Part shown: positions 3,887-44,914 of the stretch, in pieces
Layout: the number at the start of each line of letters is the position of its first letter
Position numbering within the stretch: the first letter of the stretch is position 1
From: a virus
IMG/VR virus record: IMGVR_UViG_3300024262_000060
Span: 1-44,917 of that record
Direction: 5' to 3' (one strand)
DNA: 44,917 bases
Translations under genes and position numbers: made by a program
Notes under the pieces: generated by a model
Databases searched by the model: none
Seen by the model: only the letters and a program-made list of their open reading frames with translations
Told to the model about the DNA's origin: nothing

Positions 3887-4123
3887 TTAGCTAGGGAAAT
3901 CTCCAATAGATTGTAAGCAATTCCCATCTTTAAAATCTCCTGTTGGTTCGTTGTTCTCGTATAGCTCGAATTCTTCATATAGCCTGATACAGTCAAAGCC
4001 TTCATTCTTATACTCTTTAAAAATCTTCCTTGCCTTGTTTAAATCAGTAGTAAAGTCGTCCGTTTCATTTGCGAATATATGATAGTGTTTTCTCCAATCT
4101 TGTTTTTCTTGCATTTTTTTCAT
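3887..4123 (-). CDS. Hypothetical protein, 78 aa (MKKMQEKQ group)
   Basis: The protein begins MKKMQEKQDWRKHYHIFANE, then has a DDFTTDLNKARKIFKEYKNEGFDCIRLYEE segment (split here by description: residues about 22-51) typical of small alpha/beta phage proteins, with an acidic and aromatic tail. The start is preceded by the recurrent leader ending AATTACAAAATG. N-terminal codons resemble those of the neighbours at 3513 and 4162. Function is unknown. Confidence 0.6.
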   Translation of the reverse strand: MKKMQEKQDWRKHYHIFANETDDFTTDLNKARKIFKEYKNEGFDCIRLYEEFELYENNEPTGDFKDGNCLQSIGDFPS

Positions 4124-4161
4124 TTTGTAATTGGTTTAATTAATAGGTTTATAAATAGATC

Positions 4162-4392
4162 TCAATCGCAATCGTTGCAAAACATTTCTTCACCGTTTGA
4201 AAGTGTTGCTACCATTCCAAAGGTATTTTTTGCATATTCTACCCGTTGAATTCCTTTCACTGTTAGCTTTCTATCATGTAATGCATGATTTAATAGCTCA
4301 AACATTCTAAAACTAGGAACTGTAATACTTTCTTCAGTAGTACTATTGGTGAAAGTATACCCCTTGGCCTTGTTTTCTTGTGTTGTTTTCAT
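4162..4392 (-). CDS. Hypothetical protein, 76 aa (MKTTQENK group)
   Basis: The protein begins MKTTQENKAKGYTFTNSTTE and ends with SNGEEMFCNDCD, a possible half zinc knuckle (CNDC). It has the same AATTACAAAATG leader and a similar first ten codons as adjacent genes. No family is recognised. Confidence 0.6.
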   Translation of the reverse strand: MKTTQENKAKGYTFTNSTTEESITVPSFRMFELLNHALHDRKLTVKGIQRVEYAKNTFGMVATLSNGEEMFCNDCD

Positions 4393-4419
4393 TTTGTAAT
4401 TGTTAATGAATTAATAGGT

Positions 4420-4518
4420 TTATAAATAGATTTGTACTAAACACGCAACTTGTAAACTAAGAATGAATAGTGCGCATAAGAAAATGAATGCGTCTTTGTG
4501 TGATAGTGTTGTTTTCAT
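4420..4518 (-). CDS. Very small membrane or secreted peptide, 32 aa
   Basis: The peptide begins MKTTLSHKDAFIFLCALFIL and is one hydrophobic helix with a short basic N-terminus, consistent with a membrane anchor or an uncleaved signal. Its leader is the recurrent TTAACCAATTACAAAATG, identical to that of the gene at 4546-4710, which is the main reason for calling it real. Function is unknown. Confidence 0.55.
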   Translation of the reverse strand: MKTTLSHKDAFIFLCALFILSLQVACLVQIYL

Positions 4519-4545
4519 TTTGTAATTGGTTAAATAATAATTATT

Positions 4546-4710
4546 TTATACGCTTTCCCCGTTAGTCCTGCTAGCATACCACTCTCTAAACTCTTGGCCG
4601 CTTGCCTTGCAATCCTTTAACAGTTCCTTTTCAGTGCAATCCACTAGATCATCACTAGCCCAGCCCTCAAAGCTTACTAAATATTGCATGTATAATTGTT
4701 TGCTAGTCAT
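4546..4710 (-). CDS. Hypothetical protein, 54 aa, first gene of the leftward arm
   Basis: The protein begins MTSKQLYMQYLVSFEGWASD, is acidic and helical, and contains TEKELLKDCKASGQEFREWY. It is the first gene after the leftward promoter at 4747-4775, with a predicted 5' leader of about 30 nt. Being promoter-proximal, it is probably expressed early. It may be a host-takeover protein, but that is inference from position only. Confidence 0.6.
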   Translation of the reverse strand: MTSKQLYMQYLVSFEGWASDDLVDCTEKELLKDCKASGQEFREWYASRTNGESV

Positions 4711-4726
4711 TTTGTAATTGGTTAAA
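4708..4726 (-). promoter_or_regulatory. Recurrent SD-less translation leader (TTAACCAATTACAAAATG)
   Basis: On the minus strand the start codon is preceded by TTAACCAATTACAAA. The same or nearly the same block precedes the starts at 4518, 4392, 4123 and 1584. Looser forms precede 3821, 3452 and 3179. None contains a purine-rich Shine-Dalgarno sequence, so initiation probably relies on an unstructured A-rich leader. Confidence 0.6.
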
Positions 4727-4746
4727 TAATAAATGAAAGCATCACC

Positions 4747-4775
4747 ATTCTATCTGATAATTATAATCCCGTCAA
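4747..4775 (-). promoter_or_regulatory. Leftward sigma70-type promoter
   Basis: Read on the minus strand: TTGACG (-35, 4775-4770), a 17-bp spacer, TAGAAT (-10, 4752-4747). Transcription would start near 4740, leaving about 30 nt of leader before the ATG at 4710. It is the best candidate to drive the leftward early genes. Confidence 0.7.
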
Positions 4776-4988
4776 TAGTATTTTTTACATTACTTGTAAT
4801 ATTAGCTATGTATAATGTAATAGAATGACTTTAATAAGCCATAAACCTAGCAATTAAATAAACTTGACTTGATTAACTTTGTGTTGCTTAATGTTATTAC
4901 TTATATGTTATAGATGATTTAAATTTTAAGTAGCGTTTTAACGTGTTAAAACAGTGATACAACGAATTGCCTGCAATAGTGAGAATTC

Positions 4989-5017
4989 AAGGGGGTATAA
5001 GGGGGGATCAATTGCCG
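4989..5017. repeat. G-rich direct repeat, copy 1
   Basis: The copy reads AAGGGGG-TATAA-GGGGGG-ATCAATTGCCG. It shares the AAGGGG-TA-GGGGGG-ATTGCCG framework with 5368-5389. A GAATTC lies directly before it, and AATTC follows the second copy. Confidence 0.5.
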
Positions 5018-5124
5018 TCGAGCGTGCCATTTGAAAACTTTTCAAGGGTATTTTATACGATTGAACCATAAACTTGACAAGAATGCACAGAATATAGTGT
5101 GATATACATATTTAGCCTGTTTAC

Positions 5125-5148
5125 TTTGCACAAGACACATTGTGCAAA
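5125..5148. repeat. Perfect 9-bp inverted repeat in the control region
   Basis: TTTGCACAA (5125-5133) and TTGTGCAAA (5140-5148) are separated by 6 bp. This spacing suits a dimeric DNA-binding protein or a small cruciform near an origin. The MerR-like protein at 125-358 is one conceivable ligand, but nothing links them directly. Confidence 0.6.
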
Positions 5149-5248
5149 CTAAAACTACATACCCCTTTCCCTTAAATTTTGGCATACCCCTGCGGTTTAA
5201 AAGCAAACGGAGGGTGAAGTCGATCATTTAATTATAATAGGCGGCCTA

Positions 5249-5272
5249 CCCTACCCCTACCCTACCCCTCCC
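5249..5272 (-). repeat. G-quadruplex motif (five G-runs on minus strand)
   Basis: The plus strand has C-runs of 3, 4, 3, 4 and 3 separated by TA, TA, TA and T. The minus strand therefore reads GGG-A-GGGG-TA-GGG-TA-GGGG-TA-GGG, a telomere-like motif that meets the usual G-quadruplex rule with very short loops. It sits between the two arm promoters. Confidence 0.7.
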
Positions 5273-5367
5273 AGTATGTTCGAATCTGAGGGCAAGCGGG
5301 TACGGGGTGGCCTGTAGTGTTATGGACATCTCTCTGTGAGTGTCAGGTAAAAACATTTACCGAGATC

Positions 5368-5389
5368 AAGGGGTAGGGGGGTATTGCCG
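5368..5389. repeat. G-rich direct repeat, copy 2
   Basis: The copy reads AAGGGGTAGGGGGG-TATTGCCG and matches the framework of 4989-5017. It is followed by AATTC and a GGTAAA that can pair with a nearby TTTACC. Confidence 0.5.
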
Positions 5390-5441
5390 AATTCCCGGTA
5401 AAGGCTTTAAGTACTTAGGTGTAAAAAAATATATAAAAAAT

Positions 5442-5470
5442 TTGAAAAGGCAGGGGTAATATGGTATACT
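5442..5470 (+). promoter_or_regulatory. Rightward sigma70-type promoter
   Basis: TTGAAA (5442-5447), a 17-bp spacer and TATACT (5465-5470). The start site would be near 5477, about 24 nt before the ATG at 5501. It is the first promoter of the rightward arm. Confidence 0.75.
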
Positions 5471-5500
5471 ATAAGTATAGGGAAGATAACAAAACCCAGT

Positions 5501-5686
5501 ATGAGAACTACCTTTACATGTGACCTATGTCACGAAGAGAAGTATGACAAGCAGGTACACATGGACATAGACATCCTCTACGGGGATGCGTTCACAGACA
5601 ATGACTATAAGGGTAGGTATCTTATATGCCCGGCTTGTACGGAAGGTATGAAGGCATCGTGGTGTGGTATGTTTGACAATAAGTGA
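5501..5686 (+). CDS. Zinc-ribbon protein, 61 aa, first gene of the rightward arm
   Basis: The protein begins MRTTFTCDLCHEEKYDKQVH and has two CxxC knuckles, CDLC (residues 7-10) and CPAC (about 43-46), about 32 residues apart, as in small zinc ribbons. It is the first gene after the promoter at 5442-5470, so it is probably an early product. Small phage zinc ribbons often bind host RNA polymerase or nucleic acid, but I cannot assign a partner. The following 660 bases are non-coding. Confidence 0.75.
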   Translation: MRTTFTCDLCHEEKYDKQVHMDIDILYGDAFTDNDYKGRYLICPACTEGMKASWCGMFDNK

Positions 5687-5947
5687 AACTTTCCTCTTAG
5701 GTGTTACGAACGGTAACAGGTGTTGCTCTAAGAGGTTGTGGAAGTGAGTTGGCACAGAAGCGTAAAGCAGTACTAGCTTTATATGTACACCCAACCCAGG
5801 GGGAGTGACAAAACCTGTTAGCAACCATACAGGCTCCCCCTGTGATAATAATTGACAATTAGCTGGTGCTTGTATAGAGAGGCTACAAGCTAAGTGAGGA
5901 GCTGTGTAAGCACACTGCGGTGGAAAGGGGGAACTAACAGCCAGCTA
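5687..5947 (+). ncRNA. Structured non-coding segment with three helical domains
   Basis: No convincing ORF is present. Three nested helices are visible. CCTCTTAG (5693-5700) pairs with CTAAGAGG (5728-5735) around an inner TGTTAC/GTAACA hairpin. CAGGGGGAG (5797-5805) pairs with CTCCCCCTG (5834-5842) around an inner CCTGT/ACAGG hairpin. TAGCTGG (5860-5866) pairs with CCAGCTA (5941-5947) around a GCTTGTA/TACAAGC hairpin. The last outer helix has the same sequence as the acceptor helix of the tRNA-like gene at 6097-6239. It could be a stand-alone RNA, a cleaved leader or a regulatory region between the zinc-ribbon gene and the tRNA-like genes. No known class is recognised. Confidence 0.55.
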
Positions 5948-5948
5948 T

Positions 5949-5989
5949 ATTGTATACATCAAAAGAATGATTGTATACTGATTGTATAC
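5949..5989. promoter_or_regulatory. Three phased ATTGTATAC direct repeats
   Basis: ATTGTATAC occurs at 5949-5957, 5970-5978 and 5981-5989. Start-to-start spacings are 21 and 11 bp, close to two and one helical turns, so bound proteins would lie on one face of the DNA. The core GTATAC is palindromic. This resembles an operator array for the small-gene operon starting at 6351. Confidence 0.6.
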
Positions 5990-6001
5990 TAACTAAACCA
6001 A

Positions 6002-6040
6002 ATGAAACAAACAAAGGAAGACAAGAAACTTAACAATTAG
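6002..6040 (+). pseudogene. Truncated duplicate of the start of the gene at 6602 (12 codons)
   Basis: The sequence from the leader ACCAAATGAAAC through the codons for MKQTKED duplicates the start of the gene at 6602-6889 (MKQTKEEK), then stops after 12 codons. It could be a decayed copy, a leader peptide, or a trace of recombination between identical leaders. Confidence 0.35.
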
Positions 6041-6096
6041 TATGTATCGTCTTCAATCTTAGGATTGATGAAGGAATTCTATTGCTTTCAACCAAT

Positions 6097-6239
6097 TAGC
6101 TGGTGGTGGAATAGGTAGACGCAAAGTTTCCTAGGAACAACAAGAGGCTACTGTCCTAGGACGACCTCATGTAGGGTGACTATACGAGTATGGGTGGGGG
6201 TGTCTCCCCGCCGACCCTCGTCAAATCCCTACCCAGCTA
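6097..6239 (+). tRNA. Leu-type tRNA-like gene with enlarged internal segments
   Basis: The 5' end fits a class II (Leu-like) tRNA: acceptor strand TAGCTGG, then TG, then a D-arm GTGGAATAGGTAGACGC. The 3' end fits too, with TCAAATCCCTAC followed by the acceptor partner CCAGCTA (6233-6239). The 143-base length is far above the usual 85-90. The T-stem strand pairing with CCCTAC is GTAGGG at 6171-6176, so the T-loop would be split by about 43 bases that themselves fold (GGGG/CCCC nested in GGGT/ACCC and ACGAG/CTCGT). The anticodon arm is unclear: a weak GTT/AAC stem encloses TCCTAGG. No CCA is encoded. This may be an intron-bearing tRNA, a decayed tRNA or a tRNA-derived structured RNA. Confidence 0.45.
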
Positions 6240-6262
6240 AGGTTGAAGGCGATGTGTACTAT

Positions 6263-6335
6263 CGGGGCGTAGTGTTAATGTTAGCATCTGGTATATGTAT
6301 CAGAGGAGGGGGTTCGATTCCTCCCGCCCCGACCA
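6263..6335 (+). tRNA. tRNA-like gene with encoded CCA and atypical anticodon loop
   Basis: The 73 bases show a 7-bp acceptor (CGGGGCG/CGCCCCG), discriminator A and encoded CCA, a D-arm (GTGT/GCAT), and a perfect T-arm with loop TTCGATT. The anticodon arm is odd: CTGGT/ATCAG leaves a 6-nt loop (ATATGT), and the alternative TCTGG/TCAGA leaves an 8-nt loop. A normal 7-nt loop is not obtained, so the isotype is undetermined. The conserved D-arm resembles Gln- or Glu-type tRNAs. It lies 27 nt after the Leu-like element and just before the small-gene operon. Confidence 0.6.
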
Positions 6336-6350
6336 TTAAATAAAACAACA

Positions 6351-6437
6351 ATGACAAAAGAAGATTACACGTATTTGTTTGCTCTTATTGCCCTGTACCT
6401 GCTTGGAGTTATATCTGGGATGACTATTAACTTTTAA
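6351..6437 (+). CDS. Very small membrane protein, 28 aa
   Basis: The peptide begins MTKEDYTYLFALIALYLLGV and is one membrane segment with a short charged N-terminus. The leader AAACAACAATG and the MTKED start resemble those of the next gene (MTKEEAK), which supports it being translated. Function is unknown. Confidence 0.5.
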   Translation: MTKEDYTYLFALIALYLLGVISGMTINF

Positions 6438-6443
6438 ACAACT

Positions 6444-6605
6444 ATGACAAAAGAAGAAGCAAAGAAAATAATAGAGATAATGAAGACAGCAGACGGAGGA
6501 TGTGAGTATTGTGTGTATGATTTAGTCAGTGAGTTTGTAAATGAATTTGAAGATTTTAGAAGCCTACCAGAAGCTAAAGACATACTTGATAACCAAACCA
6601 AATGA
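6444..6605 (+). CDS. Hypothetical protein, 53 aa
   Basis: The protein begins MTKEEAKKIIEIMKTADGGC and is acidic and helical, with a CEYC motif at about residues 20-23. The ATG of the next gene overlaps its stop (ATGA at 6602-6605), indicating translational coupling. No family is recognised. Confidence 0.6.
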   Translation: MTKEEAKKIIEIMKTADGGCEYCVYDLVSEFVNEFEDFRSLPEAKDILDNQTK

Positions 6606-6889
6606 AACAAACAAAGGAAGAAAAAATAGAGGAGCTGGTTGTTGCATTGAAGATAACAGGGATGCACCCATCTTCGATTGAAATAATGAGAGATGGGATT
6701 ACCTTAGCTCTACAAGAAGCAATCCAAGCAGAACGAAAGAGAATCCTTGAGGGTTTGGAGGAGATGTATCCTGTTTCAGTGTGTAGTAGACATAAAGGGG
6801 TAGTGGAAGTTTGCCCTATCTGTTATCCTTTATGGATAGCCAATCAATGTCTAGACCAAGTAAAAGAACTAATTAACAAACAACAATGA
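6602..6889 (+). CDS. Hypothetical helical protein with Cys-rich C-terminus, 95 aa
   Basis: The protein begins MKQTKEEKIEELVVALKITG and is helical up to about residue 60. Its C-terminal third (VCSRHKGVVEVCPICYPLW, about 60-79) contains C, H and a CPIC knuckle that could bind zinc. It overlaps both neighbours by 4 bases. Its leader and first codons are duplicated at 6002. Function is unknown. Confidence 0.65.
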   Translation: MKQTKEEKIEELVVALKITGMHPSSIEIMRDGITLALQEAIQAERKRILEGLEEMYPVSVCSRHKGVVEVCPICYPLWIANQCLDQVKELINKQQ

Positions 6890-7080
6890 GCAGTTACGTA
6901 AAAAAACTAGTACATCCAGTAACAGGTAAGGAACAAGTAGCACTATGTATAGATGACTACTACTCTCCACATGAATACGGATATGGGTTCAGAAAGGATG
7001 GAGGGGATGCACACTGGGATGATACCAAGTTTGAAGATTGTGAGTTCTTTAAAGTAGAAGCCTTAACCAAACAACAATGA
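6886..7080 (+). CDS. Hypothetical acidic aromatic protein, 64 aa
   Basis: The protein begins MSSYVKKLVHPVTGKEQVAL and contains many Tyr, Asp and Gly residues (DDYYSPHEYGYGFRKDGG). It overlaps both neighbouring genes by 4 bases. It looks like a small beta-sheet protein, but no family is recognised. Confidence 0.6.
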   Translation: MSSYVKKLVHPVTGKEQVALCIDDYYSPHEYGYGFRKDGGDAHWDDTKFEDCEFFKVEALTKQQ

Positions 7081-7235
7081 ACCTAGAAGACTTAATGAAG
7101 ACAATGGGGATAGACCCTGAAGAAGGACTAACAGAGAAGCAGAAGATAGGGAAGAGGTTAATGGATCTAGCTGATAAGCATCCAGGAAGGGATAAGAGCT
7201 GGGGAGGTGGAGGAGGATACCATGAGAACCAATAA
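7077..7235 (+). CDS. Hypothetical protein, 52 aa, Gly-rich C-terminus
   Basis: The protein begins MNLEDLMKTMGIDPEEGLTE, is helical for about 40 residues and ends in a Gly-rich, His-containing tail (SWGGGGGYHENQ). It overlaps the gene before by 4 bases and the gene after by 1 base (TAATG). No family is recognised. Confidence 0.55.
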   Translation: MNLEDLMKTMGIDPEEGLTEKQKIGKRLMDLADKHPGRDKSWGGGGGYHENQ

Positions 7236-7384
7236 TGAAATCAATAGACTTAACACCGGGGCCAAATAAGGAAGAAAAACAGAGGATGAAAGATGAAGAA
7301 GAGTATGCTAAGTATTGGGATGTAGAAGAGGATAACTTAACATTTGAAGAGTGGTTACTAGTAAAGCCAAAACATATGAGATAA
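7235..7384 (+). CDS. Hypothetical acidic protein, 49 aa
   Basis: The protein begins MKSIDLTPGPNKEEKQRMKD, is highly charged and contains an aromatic acidic segment (YAKYWDVEEDNLTFEEW). It is the last gene of the small rightward cluster before the 900-base non-coding stretch. The stop/start junction with the gene before is TAATG. Function is unknown. Confidence 0.55.
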   Translation: MKSIDLTPGPNKEEKQRMKDEEEYAKYWDVEEDNLTFEEWLLVKPKHMR

Positions 7385-7403
7385 GCGTGTCAAGTTAAAA
7401 GAC

Positions 7404-7432
7404 TTGACGAGTATGAGTTGTGGCGCTATAAT
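7404..7432 (+). promoter_or_regulatory. Consensus-like sigma70 promoter before the structured region
   Basis: TTGACG (7404-7409), a 17-bp spacer and a perfect TATAAT (7427-7432), the best promoter match I find in the window. Its -35 element lies within a 7-bp hairpin (GTCAAGT/ACTTGAC). Transcription would start near 7439, exactly where the structured non-coding region begins. Confidence 0.85.
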
Positions 7433-8109
7433 TAATATAGAGGGGTAGGAAGAACACAGGTTCTTTTATCCGGTGGACCATGAACTATACAATCAGTACT
7501 TTTCTCCCATAACAGGGAGCAAGTAGGAGTGGCGGTAGGCGCTTTATATTCCCTACTACAGAAGTGCTTCTGGGTTTATCGCTCAGTCCCTGTGAATGGG
7601 GTGGGTAAGAGAAGCAGCATGAAAAATAGGACGAATGGCGAAAGCGACCGCTCCTACTAGGCCCGGCAGAATAAGATTCTGGGGTAGTCCAAAGGAGCGT
7701 GGTTAATATGTGCCTAATGATCGGATGGGTTAGCTAAGCCACTAGGGGAAGCGTAGAACCCCCGAAGGAAAAATAAGATACCGTATAATATTATATTGTA
7801 CTGAGACTCAGTGGTAGTCATAAGAAAGTGATAGTTTGGTAAACGTGGACTATCAAGATACACACTGTTTAAAATAATCACGACAGGTTGGCTTTTCCCA
7901 CTTTTTTTTAAAAAAGGTGAATTTACAGGGGGGGGGAAAGGCTAATACTCTAATATTCTCTAGTGACCTGAGTTAATCGTATACGATTGGTTAAGGTCAA
8001 CAGAGAAGGCCCGTTCGCATCTTCCAGATGCTCAGGGCGGATTCAGCGAGGCAAAGATAAAACAAGAAAGAAAAATAAATATATATTCTCATAATTGACT
8101 AACCCTGCT

Positions 8110-8207
8110 GAGCGTAGCGAAGCAAGGGTGTTGCTATCGATAAGGTACAAGTGTTACCGCCGTATAGCTTAGAGCGGAGCGAAAAGCGTTCCACGAGCGT
8201 GAGCGAG
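8110..8207. repeat. Cluster of three GAGCG-AGCGA repeats
   Basis: GAGCGTAGCGA (8110-8120), GAGCGGAGCGA (8172-8182) and GAGCGTGAGCGAG (8195-8207) are variants of one motif, each placed in the loop or side of a hairpin (for example ACCCTGCT with AGCAAGGGT flanking the first). A fourth copy lies at 2653-2663. The layout resembles REP-like short palindromic repeats. Confidence 0.55.
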
Positions 8208-8227
8208 GGGAATAGGCGGAACAAGGA

Positions 8228-8261
8228 ATAGGTATACAGTGTTAAGGACAACTGTGCCTAT
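8228..8261 (+). promoter_or_regulatory. Leader hairpin before the gene at 8283
   Basis: ATAGG (8228-8232) pairs with CCTAT (8257-8261) and ACAGT (8236-8240) with ACTGT (8251-8255). It lies 22 nt before the ATG at 8283, followed by an A-rich leader, as for other genes of this phage. Confidence 0.55.
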
Positions 8262-8282
8262 ATAAATAAAACAAAAACAAAT

Positions 8283-8519
8283 ATGTCAAGTGGAGGAGAG
8301 TATTGCCCTAGTATGAGCCATTATGTGTTGTATCCTAGGGATATAAGTCCAGAGAGAGAGAAGGAGATGTGGATAGAGGAGTTAACGTATGACATGCATT
8401 GTACCCCGGAGATGGCGGAGGAGCAGTGGCAGTTATTGGGGATATTTTTAGATGAGCGTAGGAGGGAAGAGGTTGCAGGATACATAGCAGATTATTATAA
8501 AAGTTACCCTAATGGATAG
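8283..8519 (+). CDS. Hypothetical protein, 78 aa, before the terminase genes
   Basis: The protein begins MSSGGEYCPSMSHYVLYPRD. It is acidic and mostly helical after residue 22, with a segment EEQWQLLGIFLDERRREEV. It overlaps the next gene by 8 bases (8512-8519). It is the first gene of the packaging operon and is separated from the large structured region by a hairpin and an A-rich leader. Its role could be in packaging or its regulation, but no family is recognised. Confidence 0.6.
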   Translation: MSSGGEYCPSMSHYVLYPRDISPEREKEMWIEELTYDMHCTPEMAEEQWQLLGIFLDERRREEVAGYIADYYKSYPNG

Positions 8520-8676
8520 AGAGGAGCAGACTTTAACGGAGGATGAGATACAGGCTAGGTTTGGTAATAGGAAAGGAGGAACCAGGCCACGTGGGAAGGT
8601 ATGTGTTAAATCCTTGTTGAATCCGAACATAGATGATGATGAATATTTCGCATACTTGGATGCGTTAAGAAGATGA
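8512..8676 (+). CDS. Hypothetical protein, 54 aa
   Basis: The protein begins MDREEQTLTEDEIQARFGNR, has a basic middle (RKGGTRPRGKVCVK) and an acidic aromatic C-terminus (DDDEYFAYLDALRR). It overlaps the gene before by 8 bases and the terminase small subunit by 4. It is most likely translated in a coupled manner with TerS. Function is unknown. Confidence 0.6.
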   Translation: MDREEQTLTEDEIQARFGNRKGGTRPRGKVCVKSLLNPNIDDDEYFAYLDALRR

Positions 8677-9305
8677 ACCCTAAGAGGAAGAAGACGTACA
8701 GGGCTAACAATCCATATTGTTTAGTGCCGAGGAGATGGGAGTTTGTTAAGGAGTACATTAAGAATGGGTTTAATGGAGTGAAAGCTATAGAGGCTACGAT
8801 AGACCAGCATAATCTTGTACGCAACACTGATGAGAAGAAGAGGAGGGTATCGTCAGCGGTAATGGCTTGTAGATACATGAATGACCCCATAGTTTTATAC
8901 GCTGTAAAGCATCAATTATATATTATGAATAAGGATATTACGGAAGATTATTTAACCACGTCGTTGTTAGATCTGGAAGGAGATGCTAAGGCAGATGGTG
9001 ATAAGAAGGTATTGATAGACGTGTACAAGGTAATGATGAAGTTGAAAGGGTTAGGTAGTGAGAAGGTGGTTAATGAAAACATAGAGAAGAGTCAGTTTTC
9101 TTTAATGAGTCCGGAAGAGTTAAAGTTAAAGTTAGTTGAAGCGGTTAGGATATTAGAGAGTAGTGGACAGTTAGACGTAGATGAATTTATCGGGTTATTA
9201 AAGGATAAGCCTGGAGAGTTGAACAATGGTGCCACTGTAGAAATAGTAGCAGAAGAAGTCGAAGAAAGTCAAGAAGAAGAATCCAATCAAGAAGAAAATG
9301 AATGA
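8673..9305 (+). CDS. terS: Terminase small subunit-like protein
   Basis: This 210-residue protein sits directly upstream of the terminase large subunit and overlaps it by 4 bases. Residues 22-75 (FVKEYIKNGFNGVKAIEATI, then a run ending VMACRYMNDPIVLYAV) follow the pattern of the N-terminal helix-turn-helix of Terminase_2-type small subunits. A helical oligomerisation region follows, and the C-terminus is a low-complexity Glu/Gln/Ser tail. TerS recognises the packaging site on phage DNA and regulates the motor. Position and fold pattern both support the call; sequence match to a named family is not shown here. Confidence 0.7.
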   Translation: MNPKRKKTYRANNPYCLVPRRWEFVKEYIKNGFNGVKAIEATIDQHNLVRNTDEKKRRVSSAVMACRYMNDPIVLYAVKHQLYIMNKDITEDYLTTSLLDLEGDAKADGDKKVLIDVYKVMMKLKGLGSEKVVNENIEKSQFSLMSPEELKLKLVEAVRILESSGQLDVDEFIGLLKDKPGELNNGATVEIVAEEVEESQEEESNQEENE

Positions 9306-10807
9306 GTGAAGTTACGTTCTTAGAGGACATAGAGACCCAGAAGTGTTCAGCAGGAATAGATGGGTGTATTTATTTTATACGGACTTATTGTAAGTTGCGA
9401 CATCCCTTGCATGGGAAGATACCATTTGATCTTTTTCCTTATCAGGAGAAGGCGTTAAGGGATTTCGCATCTAATCGTAAGTGTGTTTTGTTGAAGAGTA
9501 GGCAGATGGGGTTCAGTTGGTTAATAGCTGCGTATAGTTTATGGTTAGCTAGTTTCAAAGATGATGCTGAGATCCTGTTGATGAGTAGGAAAGAGAAGGA
9601 TGCACAGGAGTTATTGTATAAGGTTAGGTTCATGCACGATCTTTTACCTAGGTTTCTTAGGTTGAAGAGGATGGCTGACCAGGATAGTAAGAGTATCTTA
9701 GGGTTCCGAAATGGTTCAAGGATCCAGTCTTTACCAGCTACAGAGCAGTCAGGACGAGGAGGAGCTGGTACGTTAGTAGTGATAGATGAAGCAGCGTTTA
9801 TCCCATGGGGGGAGCAGGTGTTTGCAGCGTTGAAGCCTACGTTAAGTACAGGAGGTAGTTTGATAATACAGAGTACTGCACCGGATCAAGGAGGAGAGAA
9901 TTTGTTTGCTAGGTTATGGCATCATTATGAAGAGACAGGTTTCCATAAGTGTATAGGGATAGGAGAAGAGAGTATGGAGAAGCAGATGATACACTGGAGT
10001 GATAATCCTGATAGAGATGATAAATGGTTTGAAGAAGAGAGACCTGGTTATACTGAGAGACAGTGGCAGACGGAGATGGAAGGTAGTTTTGAACAGAGTA
10101 CACGAAGGGTATTCCCTGAAGAGATCTTAAAGTTACATAATGCTGATTGGAAGAAAGGAGATTTAGGAGAATTATATTGTGAAGAAGTTGATCCGTTTGA
10201 GATGTATGCTATAGGATTCGATCCAGCTGAAGGGTTGGAGAAAGGAGATTATAGTGTAGCACAGGTATTAAGGAAGAGTGATGGTAAACAGGTATGTATA
10301 TATAGGAGTAGGAAGCCTTTGATAAATGCTTCTGAAGACGTTGTTGTATTAGCTAGGCGGTGGAACACTGCTGTACTGGCTATCGAGGATAACAATGTAG
10401 GAGTTGTAGCAGTGAACATAGCGAAGAAGAGATATAATAATTTATATAAGAGGAAGGTTATCGATAAGAAGACTGATCGCATGACTGAGAAGATTGGTTG
10501 GCGTAGTACTAAGAGGACTAAGCCTTTATTGGTAAGGGATTTAGAGATGGCCTTAAGGGATCGAGAGATTAAGTTGACTGATAAGGATACCAGACAAGAG
10601 ATGTGGCAGTACGAGTATGACGAGAATGGTGCTACTAATGCACCAAGGGGACAGTATTATGATGATTGTGTAATGAGTTTAGGAGTAGCGTATCAAGCTT
10701 TGAAGCAGTTACCTACACCTGAACAGTTCGCTAAACGGCAACAGTTGAAGAAGAACAGGAAGACAAGGATGCTCAAGAGGGTTCGTAGTTCTAGTATAGG
10801 ATATTAA
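9302..10807 (+). CDS. terL: Terminase large subunit (DNA-packaging ATPase/nuclease)
   Basis: The 501-residue protein has the expected two-domain layout. The ATPase domain has a Walker A variant KSRQMGFSW (65-73), Walker B TLVVIDEAAF (157-166, with D162/E163) and a coupling-motif region near IIQSTAPDQG (188-197). The RNase H-like nuclease domain has D307 in IGFDPAEG, D316, an E362/D363 acidic motif in LAIEDNN and the DD pair 454-455 in YYDDCVMSLG. It cuts concatemeric DNA and drives it into the prohead through the portal encoded next. The length is normal for the family and all key motifs are present. Confidence 0.95.
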   Translation: MSEVTFLEDIETQKCSAGIDGCIYFIRTYCKLRHPLHGKIPFDLFPYQEKALRDFASNRKCVLLKSRQMGFSWLIAAYSLWLASFKDDAEILLMSRKEKDAQELLYKVRFMHDLLPRFLRLKRMADQDSKSILGFRNGSRIQSLPATEQSGRGGAGTLVVIDEAAFIPWGEQVFAALKPTLSTGGSLIIQSTAPDQGGENLFARLWHHYEETGFHKCIGIGEESMEKQMIHWSDNPDRDDKWFEEERPGYTERQWQTEMEGSFEQSTRRVFPEEILKLHNADWKKGDLGELYCEEVDPFEMYAIGFDPAEGLEKGDYSVAQVLRKSDGKQVCIYRSRKPLINASEDVVVLARRWNTAVLAIEDNNVGVVAVNIAKKRYNNLYKRKVIDKKTDRMTEKIGWRSTKRTKPLLVRDLEMALRDREIKLTDKDTRQEMWQYEYDENGATNAPRGQYYDDCVMSLGVAYQALKQLPTPEQFAKRQQLKKNRKTRMLKRVRSSSIGY

Positions 10808-10821
10808 ACATAAAAAGAAAT

Positions 10822-12792
10822 ATGGAAAAAAATAAAACACCGATTACTGTAGAGGACATTCACAAGATAGGTGAAGAAGCTGAAGGCAGGAATGGCCAGA
10901 GTAAAGAGCATCAAGAGATTGTTGATAAGGTATTTGAAAGGTTCAGGGTTGACAAAGATGCTAAGAGTCTTATTGACTTGGATCATTCTGAAGCCTTAGA
11001 AGAATACGAGAATGTATTAGCAGGATCCCCAGATGGGTTAGCTAATATTAAGAATCCTATTCTATTCAGTGTGGTACAGAATAAGATCGCTGAGGAGTTA
11101 AGTGCTATGCCTGATATTAGATTCATGCCTGTTAAGCAGAGTGATAGAGGATATGTAGCTCCTATAAAGGCTGCGTATAATCATTCAACTGCTAACAGTA
11201 GATTCAATTACAACTTGTACAAGTGTTTCTTATGGAAAGATATTACTGGTACAGGGATAGGAAGAGAAGGGTATGTACAAGAAGTTAGAACAGTATTTGA
11301 CTTAGTACCTAAGAAAGATAAGAATGGTAAGTTCGTAAAGGATGCAGAAGGTAATCCTATTATGGAGAAGAAAGCTAGAGTGCATTACGACTTTGACGAT
11401 TTAATGTTGACCTGTATTGACCATAGAAGATTCTTCCCTGACGCTAGGGCAGAGGATATGGAGACAGCTAGATGGACAACTGAGATAGAGGAAGTTGATT
11501 ACGATGAATGGAGAATGAGTGCTGAGTATGATGATAGTCTTATAAAGGAGAACATTGACATGGTAACTCCTGAGAATATCTATAGTTACAATTACCCATT
11601 CGGTATTTCTTACATGTCAACAGAGGAACAGAAACGTATTATAGAAGGACAGACTTCTAGTAATAGAGTATTGTTAGTGAAACATTTTGATAAACTAGCT
11701 GATGCGTATTACATAGTTGCTAATGGTGTACTGGTTAGGGACACACCTAATCCGTATGCACACAAGCAGATACCTTATGTTAGGTTTGTCAACTACGAAG
11801 AGTTGGCTTCCTTCTGGGGTAGAAGTGAGTACAAGGTATTGAAACAGAATATTGAGGAGCAGAATTTCTTAAGTAACAACTTAGCTGACTGGTCTAAGAT
11901 TAATATTAATAGACCTATATTAGTAGGTGCAACAGACTTTGAGGATGAAGATATTGAGTTTGCTCCTGGTGCTATTTGGCATTTAGGTGATGTGAATCAG
12001 GTAAAGGTAATGGATTTAGGAGATGTACCTAGTGGTATCTTTGGTTTAAGGGATGTATTGAATAGTGACATTGTTGCTTATACAGGTATTGATCCAAGGG
12101 CTTTATCTTCTAGTAAGGAAGAGACAGCTACTAGATCAGCGTTAAAGCAGGAGAAGTTCTTGAAACGTATTGGTATGGGGCTAAGGTTAGTTGATTGGAC
12201 AGCGTTAGAACCTTTCGCAAAGATGAGGTTAGCTAATATCCAGCAGTTTTATTCAGAGAAGAGAGTGGAGATGATGTTTGATTCTGAGGATAATTTAGTA
12301 GCTAAGACTATGGGATACAGGGATATACGTGTCCCTGATGTTGATGTTATTAAGGATGACAAGGGTAACTTAAAGTTCATTGATCGTAAAGGAGCGTTAA
12401 GTTTCTTCCAAGCTAAGCCTGATGTTATTAACGCACAGATGGATGTACAAGCTGTTACAGGTAGTACATTGAGTACTAGTAAAGAGGTTGATAGACAGAA
12501 CTTTAATAACGCATTACAGAGTATGGCAGCGTTCCCAGAATTGAGACAGTTACTTAACTGGACATATATAGGACAGGAGTTAGCTAAGAAGAATGGATTG
12601 AATGAGAATGAGATGGTGAAGACAGCTGAGACAATGGAACCTGAGATAGATGAGAATGTACCTACTGAACAGTTATTGAAACAGGCAGGTATTAATCCTC
12701 CAGGTACAGAGCCAGAAGCTGAGCCTATACCGGAAGATGTAGCGACAGAAGATATATTAGCAAATGCAGGGATTAACCAACCACAAGTATGA
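10822..12792 (+). CDS. Portal protein
   Basis: The 656-residue protein directly after TerL has portal characteristics: an acidic helical N-terminus, a long mixed core, the helical stretch around NFLSNNLADWSKININRP and GAIWHLGDVNQVKVMDLGD, and a region ALSSSKEETATRSALKQE resembling the tunnel-loop/helix region of P22-like portals. The C-terminus is Pro/Glu-rich with two similar peptides (LLKQAGINPPG and ILANAGINQPQ), perhaps a short duplication. It forms the dodecameric DNA channel at one capsid vertex. It overlaps the next gene by 4 bases. Confidence 0.85.
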   Translation: MEKNKTPITVEDIHKIGEEAEGRNGQSKEHQEIVDKVFERFRVDKDAKSLIDLDHSEALEEYENVLAGSPDGLANIKNPILFSVVQNKIAEELSAMPDIRFMPVKQSDRGYVAPIKAAYNHSTANSRFNYNLYKCFLWKDITGTGIGREGYVQEVRTVFDLVPKKDKNGKFVKDAEGNPIMEKKARVHYDFDDLMLTCIDHRRFFPDARAEDMETARWTTEIEEVDYDEWRMSAEYDDSLIKENIDMVTPENIYSYNYPFGISYMSTEEQKRIIEGQTSSNRVLLVKHFDKLADAYYIVANGVLVRDTPNPYAHKQIPYVRFVNYEELASFWGRSEYKVLKQNIEEQNFLSNNLADWSKININRPILVGATDFEDEDIEFAPGAIWHLGDVNQVKVMDLGDVPSGIFGLRDVLNSDIVAYTGIDPRALSSSKEETATRSALKQEKFLKRIGMGLRLVDWTALEPFAKMRLANIQQFYSEKRVEMMFDSEDNLVAKTMGYRDIRVPDVDVIKDDKGNLKFIDRKGALSFFQAKPDVINAQMDVQAVTGSTLSTSKEVDRQNFNNALQSMAAFPELRQLLNWTYIGQELAKKNGLNENEMVKTAETMEPEIDENVPTEQLLKQAGINPPGTEPEAEPIPEDVATEDILANAGINQPQV

Positions 12793-13070
12793 TATTTAAC
12801 AGGGAAGTGAAAGTAGTATATGAGAGGAAGCCTTTGACTAAAGGGCAAGCAGGATCGTTATCAAGGCTGAACGATTATGATTTAATAGAGACTAAGGAAG
12901 CCTTGAAGACATTGATAGACAATTATATCCGAGACATTATGGATTCATATATGTTTGAAGGGAAGATGGATATAAAGGAAGTAGTGTGGAAAATGAGCAA
13001 AATTATTCCCGCAGTCGAAAAAGCGGATAAGCATAAAACAAAAACAAAAACAAAGGAGCAAGAGAAATGA
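12789..13070 (+). CDS. Hypothetical protein, 93 aa, between portal and scaffold
   Basis: The protein begins MIFNREVKVVYERKPLTKGQ, has a helical core (LKTLIDNYIRDIMDSYMFEG) and ends in a basic Lys/Thr-rich tail. It overlaps the portal stop by 4 bases. The position suggests a minor head or assembly protein, but I recognise no family. Confidence 0.6.
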   Translation: MIFNREVKVVYERKPLTKGQAGSLSRLNDYDLIETKEALKTLIDNYIRDIMDSYMFEGKMDIKEVVWKMSKIIPAVEKADKHKTKTKTKEQEK

Positions 13071-40127: not shown

Positions 40128-41462
40128 TTAATAAATATTTTGTTGTTCTTGTATAGCTGCTACCTTTTGAGAGTCCAGCTTAGGTTTTCTTATCCTATTA
40201 TCAGTAGAGAACAGTCCAGTATTAGTATCGAAGTAGAGATCAAACGAACCTAGCTGTCCGTATCTATTCTTAAGCACATCTACTATAGCTGTATGTGGAT
40301 TATTCTCTGGAGCCTGTAGTTCAAGCTCTTTATCTCTCTTCAATCTCATAACAAACCCTGCTGTTGCTGCTATATCACCACTACCTTTAGTCTTAATGAC
40401 TAGCCCCTCTCCTTTAGCGGAATCATCAGGGGTCTGTGACAATGCTACCACTGTGAGATCGTGATCTATTGCTATCCTCTGTAGATCTCCAGTGATATTA
40501 GTAAGCTTTGTGTAGTTATCTCCTTGCCCTTTAAGGTTCTGAATATAATCTACAAACACAACTTCAGGGTGATACCCTCTCATACGTAACATGTTTAGTC
40601 TAAGCGACATATCCTCTGTTGTGATACAGTCATCAAAGGCAAACAAGTTTGTCTCAGCCAATCTTTCAAAGGTCGTAATCACCTGTTCAGATTCATAGTT
40701 CTCAGCTAAGGTATACATATCTTCTCCACAAGATTGTGCTATGACTTTAGAAACTATCTCCTTATAAGTCATCTCAGCTGAGAAGAATACAATACAAGTC
40801 TTAGGGGCGGAGGATATCAACTTTTCCACCAGCATAGTTGCAAAGCTTGTCTTACCCATAGAGGTGTACGCTACAACTACCCAGTAGTGTCCTCTACGAT
40901 AACCCTTGATAAGCTTATCTATGCCGGGGATGCCGGCTGGTATCCCCCATCCCTCCTTCGCTACTCTTTCCCAATCTAATAACACTTCACTCAAGATCCC
41001 TTTTATATGACCATCCTGTTTAACTTTCCTTCGTAGTAACTTTGAGAATCCTGAGACAGTTGCTTTCATCACTGCCTCAACATCCTCTTGTCCCTTTTCT
41101 AATTGCTCTGTTACAGAAGCGGTCAAGTTGGAGACCTCTCTCCTTAACTTCTTTTCTTTAATAATGTTCGCATGTTCCATGATATGAGAAGCTGATACTT
41201 CTTCCATAGCAACGTGGGCCAAGTAAGATGCTGTGACTTCTTTGATCTTACCCATAGAGGTAAGCTCTTCTGATACAGTCACAAGGTCCACCTTAGTACC
41301 CTTACTATACAATGACTTAATTGCTTTAAAGATGTTCTGATGTACAGAGGAATAGAATTCTTCCACTCCTATTACATCACTCACCTCAGCAAGTCTGTCC
41401 GGCTCTAATATCAAGGAACATAAGACTGCTCTTTCTGCTTGATCGTTATGCTGTTCTTCCAT
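40128..41462 (-). CDS. dnaB: DnaB-type replicative helicase
   Basis: The 444-residue protein has an N-terminal DnaB_N-like helical domain (1-100), a linker and a RecA-like ATPase domain. Walker A is AYTSMGKTS (198-206), the second motif VFFSAEMTYKE (225-235), and Walker B VVFVDYIQNLKG (301-312). The sensor region is VALSQTPDD. It unwinds the phage fork as a hexamer. The usual GxPxxGK Walker form is changed only in its first residues. No primase or polymerase gene is visible, so host enzymes are probably recruited. Confidence 0.9.
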   Translation of the reverse strand: MEEQHNDQAERAVLCSLILEPDRLAEVSDVIGVEEFYSSVHQNIFKAIKSLYSKGTKVDLVTVSEELTSMGKIKEVTASYLAHVAMEEVSASHIMEHANIIKEKKLRREVSNLTASVTEQLEKGQEDVEAVMKATVSGFSKLLRRKVKQDGHIKGILSEVLLDWERVAKEGWGIPAGIPGIDKLIKGYRRGHYWVVVAYTSMGKTSFATMLVEKLISSAPKTCIVFFSAEMTYKEIVSKVIAQSCGEDMYTLAENYESEQVITTFERLAETNLFAFDDCITTEDMSLRLNMLRMRGYHPEVVFVDYIQNLKGQGDNYTKLTNITGDLQRIAIDHDLTVVALSQTPDDSAKGEGLVIKTKGSGDIAATAGFVMRLKRDKELELQAPENNPHTAIVDVLKNRYGQLGSFDLYFDTNTGLFSTDNRIRKPKLDSQKVAAIQEQQNIY

Positions 41463-42462: not shown

Positions 42463-43212
42463 TTATTGATTAATTCCTAGTTTTCTGTCATTACATCTAT
42501 TATACGCAGTGTTCACGTTAGCAAGCCATGTAACAGCATTGTCACTACCAGTGTAGGTATTTGCTACGCTTAGATTAGGGTACACACCGTACTTAGTAGA
42601 CCATAGTAGCTTGAAAGCATCGAAGCTTTCCTCGTTACGAGAGAAGGATTGTAAATATCTTTTACCTTCTGAGTTCCATGCCATCAGGCCGAAACAGTTA
42701 TTGTTAGTCAAACCAGCACCAGCTTGACAGTAACTTGTCTCTGCTACTGCTACTGCATCAGCTAGGCAATCTAAATCATAGGTAGGTTCTTGCGCTACGG
42801 GGTCTAACAGGACAGCAGCTGACACAGGTGAGTCTTCCTGTGGTTCTTGTACTACCTCCTCTGTAAGAGGCTCTGACACAGGGATTTCTTCAAAGTCTTG
42901 TAGGTCTTGGAAGGATTCTATTTCTTCCTGTACACACTCAGTATACATAACTCCTACCAGCCTATAAGCTTCCTCTTTAGGGATCTTATCTGCTAATGCG
43001 ACGATCTTTTCATAGGCTAATCGTCTTTCAAGTGTACACCTTTCGAACTCAAGCTCTTGGATCTTAACTGATAGAGCTTTGTGATCCTCTCCCATAGTAA
43101 AGAGAGGTGTTGGATCTTCTTCTGTTGCTGGTAGTAATGCAACGAGGAGGAAACCCAGTACCAGTGCAGCTACAAATATAGCAGCATGGTGTTTTAGTTT
43201 AAGCATATTCAT
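42463..43212 (-). CDS. Membrane-anchored glucosaminidase/lysozyme-like protein
   Basis: The 249-residue protein has an N-terminal membrane segment (AAIFVAALVLGFLLVALL, 10-27), a coiled coil (about 45-75), a Glu/Pro-rich spacer (about 105-140) and a C-terminal domain. The domain has VAVAETSYCQAG (about 153-164, with a possible catalytic E157), NNNCFGLMAWN (about 170-180) and FDAFKLLWSTKYGVYPNLSV (about 197-216), the pattern of glucosaminidase-type domains I associate with Patescibacteria. It may reshape the cell wall for entry, lysis or exclusion. An inverted repeat lies downstream. Confidence 0.6.
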   Translation of the reverse strand: MNMLKLKHHAAIFVAALVLGFLLVALLPATEEDPTPLFTMGEDHKALSVKIQELEFERCTLERRLAYEKIVALADKIPKEEAYRLVGVMYTECVQEEIESFQDLQDFEEIPVSEPLTEEVVQEPQEDSPVSAAVLLDPVAQEPTYDLDCLADAVAVAETSYCQAGAGLTNNNCFGLMAWNSEGKRYLQSFSRNEESFDAFKLLWSTKYGVYPNLSVANTYTGSDNAVTWLANVNTAYNRCNDRKLGINQ

Positions 43213-44495: not shown

Positions 44496-44804
44496 TTAAA
44501 CAGGCATAGGTAAACCAAGGAAATTAAATTCTTCATTGGTCGCATACCCAGCGTTCATTGTTTCAGTACCATAATAAGCTGGTTGCTTATCTAGGTTTAA
44601 ATAATCTCTCTTTTTCTTATCATAGATCCCACTATAGATCTTGTCATGACCCCCTTTAGGCCATATACCACAGAATCTTTTGTAATTGTATTTGTACTCC
44701 TCTTCTGTCATTTCACCACGCTCCACTAGTTTCCTTAACTCTGCAATGTATGTAGAGTTTTCTGGTGTGGGCTTTTCAGTCCCTTGAACGATAGAATCTT
44801 TCAT
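44496..44804 (-). CDS. Hypothetical protein, 102 aa
   Basis: The protein begins MKDSIVQGTEKPTPENSTYI, has a helical middle with a short SHOCT-like pattern (ELRKLVERGEMTEEEYKYNY, about 23-42) and an aromatic C-terminus. The SHOCT-like helix pair is common in many small proteins and is not diagnostic. Its start lies 28 nt after the tandem-hairpin copy C in the right genome end. In the left-end copy that element is missing. Function is unknown. Confidence 0.6.
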   Translation of the reverse strand: MKDSIVQGTEKPTPENSTYIAELRKLVERGEMTEEEYKYNYKRFCGIWPKGGHDKIYSGIYDKKKRDYLNLDKQPAYYGTETMNAGYATNEEFNFLGLPMPV

Positions 44805-44914
44805 GTTTAGGCTTTAGGAAGTAATGAGTTAATGAAATTGATTCTCAATTTCATCTGAACCCGAGATGAGATCTCAGGCATTGAAGATTTGTATACACAC
44901 TATACCATTTTAAA
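44749..44914. repeat. Right copy of the terminal direct repeat
   Basis: The copy equals bases 1-114 except that AGTA (77-80) is replaced by 56 bases (44825-44880). The last three bases (44915-44917) also differ from 115-117. The difference sits exactly at the tandem-hairpin element, so two variants of this leader coexist in the assembled population or arise by recombination. Confidence 0.85.
44832..44878 (-). promoter_or_regulatory. Tandem-hairpin leader element, copy C (variable between genome ends)
   Basis: Hairpin 1 is ATGAAATTGA-TTC-TCAATTTCAT (44832-44854). Hairpin 2 pairs CCCGAGAT (44860-44867) with ATCTCAGG (44871-44878) around GAG, with one mismatch. It lies 28 nt before the start at 44804. 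The left-end copy of the same flanks lacks it. Confidence 0.8.

Follow-up and report, generated by a model that had tools for sequence, protein, structure and literature searches.

What is the function of a stretch of 849 nt (7434-8282) that holds no gene and lies just upstream of the DNA-packaging genes of a phage? The DNA concerned is the IMG/VR record IMGVR_UViG_3300024262_000060, from a virus of bacteria (44,917 nt, G+C content 39.8% genome-wide); its full length is called the window here. A previous sequence-only reading of the window compared the stretch with the phage RNAs GOLLD and ROOL and named a leader of the packaging operon as the main alternative. GOLLD is phage-encoded, often exceeds 800 nt, has several domains, occurs near tRNA genes and codes for no protein; its universally conserved 3' region contains covarying stems (PMC12286853). 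ROOL is a large structured phage RNA often found near tRNA islands, and the traits that define the two are an Rfam match, covarying stems and homo-oligomeric cages (PMC12286853).

Genome setting and packaging genes

The two ends of the record (1-114 and 44749-44914) carry identical repeats of 76 bp and 35 bp, separated by 3 bases at one end and 55 at the other, and these shared terminal repeats indicate that the record may represent an almost complete genome whose ends overlap imperfectly. Up to 4392 the genes point leftward and from about 5500 they point rightward; GC skew and gene direction both switch at about 4-5 kb. The zone 4393-8282 is poor in genes, and the structured stretch forms its right end, immediately ahead of the packaging genes. 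Repeated stretches of 25-64 bp are found at 1574-1605, 4099-4160, 4369-4431, 4506-4540 and 4707-4732, and two of these repeats (at 4123 and 4392) overlap start codons and leaders on the minus strand. Shine-Dalgarno sequences are absent at the gene starts, which have A/T-rich leaders instead. Such starts recall those of Bacteroidota.

The first gene downstream is an ORF of 78 amino acids (8283-8519, plus strand) with no family match. It is followed on the same strand by a probable small terminase gene, terS (8673-9305), and by the large terminase gene, terL (9302-10807; phrog_2, E 1e-41). A PHROG search with the former gave no match; the call was made from its position and from a weak DNA match (9014-9190 of the window against 2030-2206) to the gene preceding TerL in the related contig 3300008255_000572, termed L010. 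This relative has the same packaging genes downstream, and its TerL and portal proteins are 64% and 53% identical to those of the window. The portal gene of the window lies at 10822-12792 and a DnaB-like helicase gene at 40128-41462 on the minus strand.

Promoter match and terminator scan

A sigma-70-type promoter-like site, TTGACG-17-TATAAT, is present on the plus strand at 7404-7432, where the sequence-only reading had placed it, and agrees with the consensus at 11 of 12 positions. The additional claim that it is the strongest promoter in the window holds for the plus strand, on which it is the sole 11/12 site, but three sites on the minus strand score equally. Shuffled genomes contain on average 1.8 sites of this quality by chance (both strands), or 0.57 when the spacer is set to 17 nt, and the promoter at the start of the stretch is a match at the level of sequence. 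The only other 17-spaced site in the genome, at 43274 on the minus strand, ends 34 nt upstream of the gene start at 43212, and this closeness lends modest support to real use of the 17-spaced type.

A consensus scan of the plus strand from 7434 to 9400, which covers intrinsic terminators and not Rho-dependent ends, found no terminator-like site. No U run follows the last hairpin of the stretch (8228-8261), and 21 nt separate this hairpin from the next ORF. As no intrinsic terminator was detected ahead of terS and terL, RNA polymerase would be expected to read on into these packaging genes.

Coding potential and folding

The stretch was described earlier as free of genes, and this was borne out in all six frames. 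Over its whole length the best codon score was -0.13, with 18 stops, versus +0.03 to +0.53 in 21 training genes, and the longest ORF starting within it with ATG, GTG or TTG has 43 amino acids on the plus strand and 55 on the minus strand. The codon score and the lack of a long open frame speak against a protein-coding region. The G+C content is 43.3% in the stretch and 47.6% in 7434-7780, against the lower genome-wide value given above.

The minimum free energy of the 849 nt is -248.7 kcal/mol, and neither a set of 20 nor one of 50 dinucleotide shuffles contained a sequence as stable. The z values of the plus strand were -3.2, -3.8 and -5.4, whereas the reverse strand folds less extremely (z -2.5 and -2.8). 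When 29 other 849-nt stretches of the genome were compared, with 12 shuffles per stretch, 3 of them (starting at 13001, 14301 and 29901) folded equally extremely, with z between -4.4 and -6.3; fold energy alone is hence no marker of an RNA gene. The dense structure of the earlier description thus stands insofar as all 70 shuffles fold worse, but it is not unique in the genome. Overall, the analysis supports the view that 7434-8282 is non-coding and structured.

Predicted structural parts

All parts named below are predicted on the plus strand. A hairpin of 12 bp in two segments (7443-7471, pair probability 0.88-0.93) adjoins the predicted 5' end of the RNA at about 7439. Next comes the multibranched Domain I (7472-7854), spanning about 380 nt, whose closing helix (7472-7494/7830-7854) has a probability of 0.92-1.0 when 7439-7860 is folded alone versus about 0.5-0.57 in the full-length ensemble; the fold of 7439-7860 has a z of -2.2, with 1 of 100 shuffles as stable. 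An arm at 7522-7658 is closed by a helix of 11 bp, 7522-7532/7648-7658, with one G-T pair and a pair probability of 0.95-0.99. This is the long-range pairing noted previously, at that time as 10 bp. A helix of this length with at most one G-T pair appears by chance in 24% of shuffles anywhere and in 9% within 150 nt, and the local fold of 7520-7660 reaches a z of -2.6 (2 of 200 shuffles as stable).

Domain II (7887-8007) combines a hairpin of 23 bp (7887-7946) with an imperfect 52-nt palindrome, or inverted repeat, at 7956-8007, and none of 200 shuffles was as stable as the local fold of 7885-8010 (z -5.1). The 23-bp hairpin consists mostly of homopolymer runs (T8, A6, G9) and is possibly variable in length. 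An A-rich linker (about 8040-8100) leads to the 3' hairpins (8100-8261), made up of 8100-8225, for which z is -1.9 with 10 of 200 shuffles as stable, and of the last hairpin at 8228-8261. Hairpin motifs of the form GAGCGnAGCG cluster in 8104-8212 (at 8110, 8172/8177 and 8195) and resemble small palindromic repeats; similar motifs occur at 2653 on the plus strand and in L010 at 1444 on the minus strand. The repeated motifs of the sequence-only reading are weak two-copy matches.

Search for relatives

The proposed resemblance to GOLLD and ROOL did not extend to membership in either family: a search of Rfam with both models gave no match even at E<=10. At gathering scores the entire window contained no GOLLD, ROOL or other relevant family; at E<=10 nothing relevant was found in 3 kb of sequence, and the 849 bases alone had no match. 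GOLLD, ROOL, group I and II introns and every other Rfam family were dropped as candidates for want of a relevant match. In blastn comparisons, phages gave nothing beyond chance matches about 30 nt long, and plasmids gave no homologue. Degenerate patterns built on two frames of the region that lack stops retrieved only a sister contig, 3300009149_000333, from IMG/VR. This contig is 99.8% identical to the window, is the sole other carrier of the stretch found, and differs within it by a single substitution, C8024T, which falls in the loop of a predicted hairpin. Searches of IMG/VR with TerL and portal gave this contig and L010 as the only near relatives, and only distant TerL relatives were present in the genome collection. 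A covariance model (R1) of 7520-7690 had no match in 75 related loci and 7 whole records; the model is effectively single-sequence, and its silence is weak evidence. By these searches the stretch appears to be an orphan, lineage-specific sequence that matches no known RNA family.

In L010 no counterpart was detected, either with R1, effectively a single-sequence model, or as a significant DNA match. A non-coding segment of its own that folds strongly precedes the packaging genes of L010 (178-1027, z -6.2, 25 shuffles). This segment was rejected as a homologue of 7434-8282, and carries instead an element, X, described below. The starts of the two segments have GAGGGGTAGGA in common, which is within chance, since about 0.6 such 11-mers are expected for sequences of these lengths. 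Five ordinary tRNAs are situated in L010 at 2277-2671, between terS and terL.

Features upstream of the stretch

Element X (5181-5348, plus strand), 2 kb upstream of the stretch, is non-coding and is common to the window and L010 (384-553), with a blastn E of 2e-4 and an nhmmer E of 0.006-0.03. Its motif, GTATGTyCGa(a)TCTGrGG..AAGyGGGTAC, lies within a predicted hairpin. RNAalifold gave 28 pairs, six of them double-changed with pairing kept, from two sequences and with the structure predicted from the same alignment. The element has no Rfam match, its motif is in no other IMG/VR contig, and it is absent from 45 other loci. It is a better comparative lead than 7434-8282.

The stretch had also been said to adjoin tRNA-like genes. 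A marginal tRNA gene with encoded CCA does exist at 6263-6335, about 1.1 kb upstream; its Rfam tRNA score of 31.6 bits (6263-6332) is just above the cut-off of 29, but the other candidates fall below it, and ARAGORN in default bacterial mode found no tRNA and missed 6263-6332. Two further structures, at 6097-6243 and 5857-5950, are each closed by TTAGCTGG..CCAGCTA. The former starts like a tRNA-Leu and, judged by eye, seems to have a T-loop enlarged by about 40 bases; it has no Rfam tRNA hit.

Leader, free RNA or DNA site

Taken together, the promoter at the start, the hairpin near the 5' end, the lack of a terminator and the ORF 21 nt further on make a leader the plainest reading. We tentatively regard 7439-8282 as a long 5' leader, structured and not translated, that belongs to the packaging or late operon, with a probability of about 45%. 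The sequence-only reading had held this as its alternative, and it fits better than a free-standing RNA, as no terminator-like site precedes terL and genes on the same strand follow directly. The absent coding signal, the stronger folding of the plus strand relative to all shuffles and to the reverse strand, the z of Domain II and the long-range closure likewise favour it. Against it stand the three other stretches that fold as extremely, the chance occurrence of promoters of equal quality, the absence of a homologous leader from L010 and a length above 800 nt, unusual for a plain leader. Long structured 5' leaders of phage operons resemble the stretch in their promoter, 5'-end hairpin, missing intrinsic terminator and same-strand genes directly after, but differ in that about 840 nt is unusually long for them and in that the stretch shows no recognisable riboswitch or anti-termination family.

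It is unlikely that the stretch yields a large non-coding RNA as a discrete molecule, one that has no sequence relationship to GOLLD and ROOL but would act like them, as a self-assembling structural RNA during infection. Like GOLLD, the stretch is phage-borne, longer than 800 nt, multi-domain and non-coding, and like ROOL it is large, phage-encoded and predicted to be structured; the A-rich linker, the marginal tRNA gene upstream and the better folding than shuffles agree with this. Unlike both, it has no Rfam match; unlike GOLLD, it lacks a defined 3' end, no conserved 3' half was found elsewhere and there is no homologue set. No relatives were found, and no terminator would end such a transcript. 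That it represents a class of large, ornate RNAs not yet described in phages, of about 840 nt and directly upstream of the terminase genes, is judged quite improbable. Phage phi29 has a non-coding RNA, the packaging RNA (pRNA), with a link to packaging. The stretch resembles it in adjoining packaging genes, but is about five times longer and has no Rfam match. A control region acting as DNA (a pac or cos site, a replication origin or a recombination hot spot), rich in palindromes and just upstream of the terminase genes, is rather unlikely as well; it draws its main support, for a pac/cos or origin role, from the palindrome at 7956-8007, besides the small palindromic motifs of 8104-8212, the adjoining terS-terL and the nearby switch in gene direction and GC skew. 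That switch, however, is 3 kb off and tracks gene direction, iterons looked for in the sequence were not found, and structure is stronger on the plus than on the reverse strand. Doubtful to a still greater degree is an ordinary fast-evolving spacer, or a remnant of lost genes or mobile pieces, whose structure is inconsequential. Its absence from L010 and the comparable fold scores of 3 of the 29 other stretches would suit such a spacer, but a span of nearly 1 kb that is kept gene-free although the genome is compact, that has a promoter at the start and that folds better than every shuffle, would not.

Under the leader reading, RNA synthesis would start about 6 nt downstream of the promoter, near 7439, which would leave only about 4 nt between the 5' end of the transcript and its first hairpin. 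A multibranched domain of about 380 nt, two long hairpins, the A-rich linker and the 3' hairpin domain would follow, and the RNA would continue through the 78-aa ORF, terS and terL. Its job would most likely be to stabilise the late message and to set its expression, and the leader could perhaps be cleaved to give a separate free RNA, in which case it would function much as GOLLD or ROOL do. If the stretch is a discrete RNA, it would be an independent addition to the few large phage RNAs of unknown purpose. If it is a leader, it would offer a handy case for studying the stabilisation and control of late messages in a phage without ribosome-binding sites.
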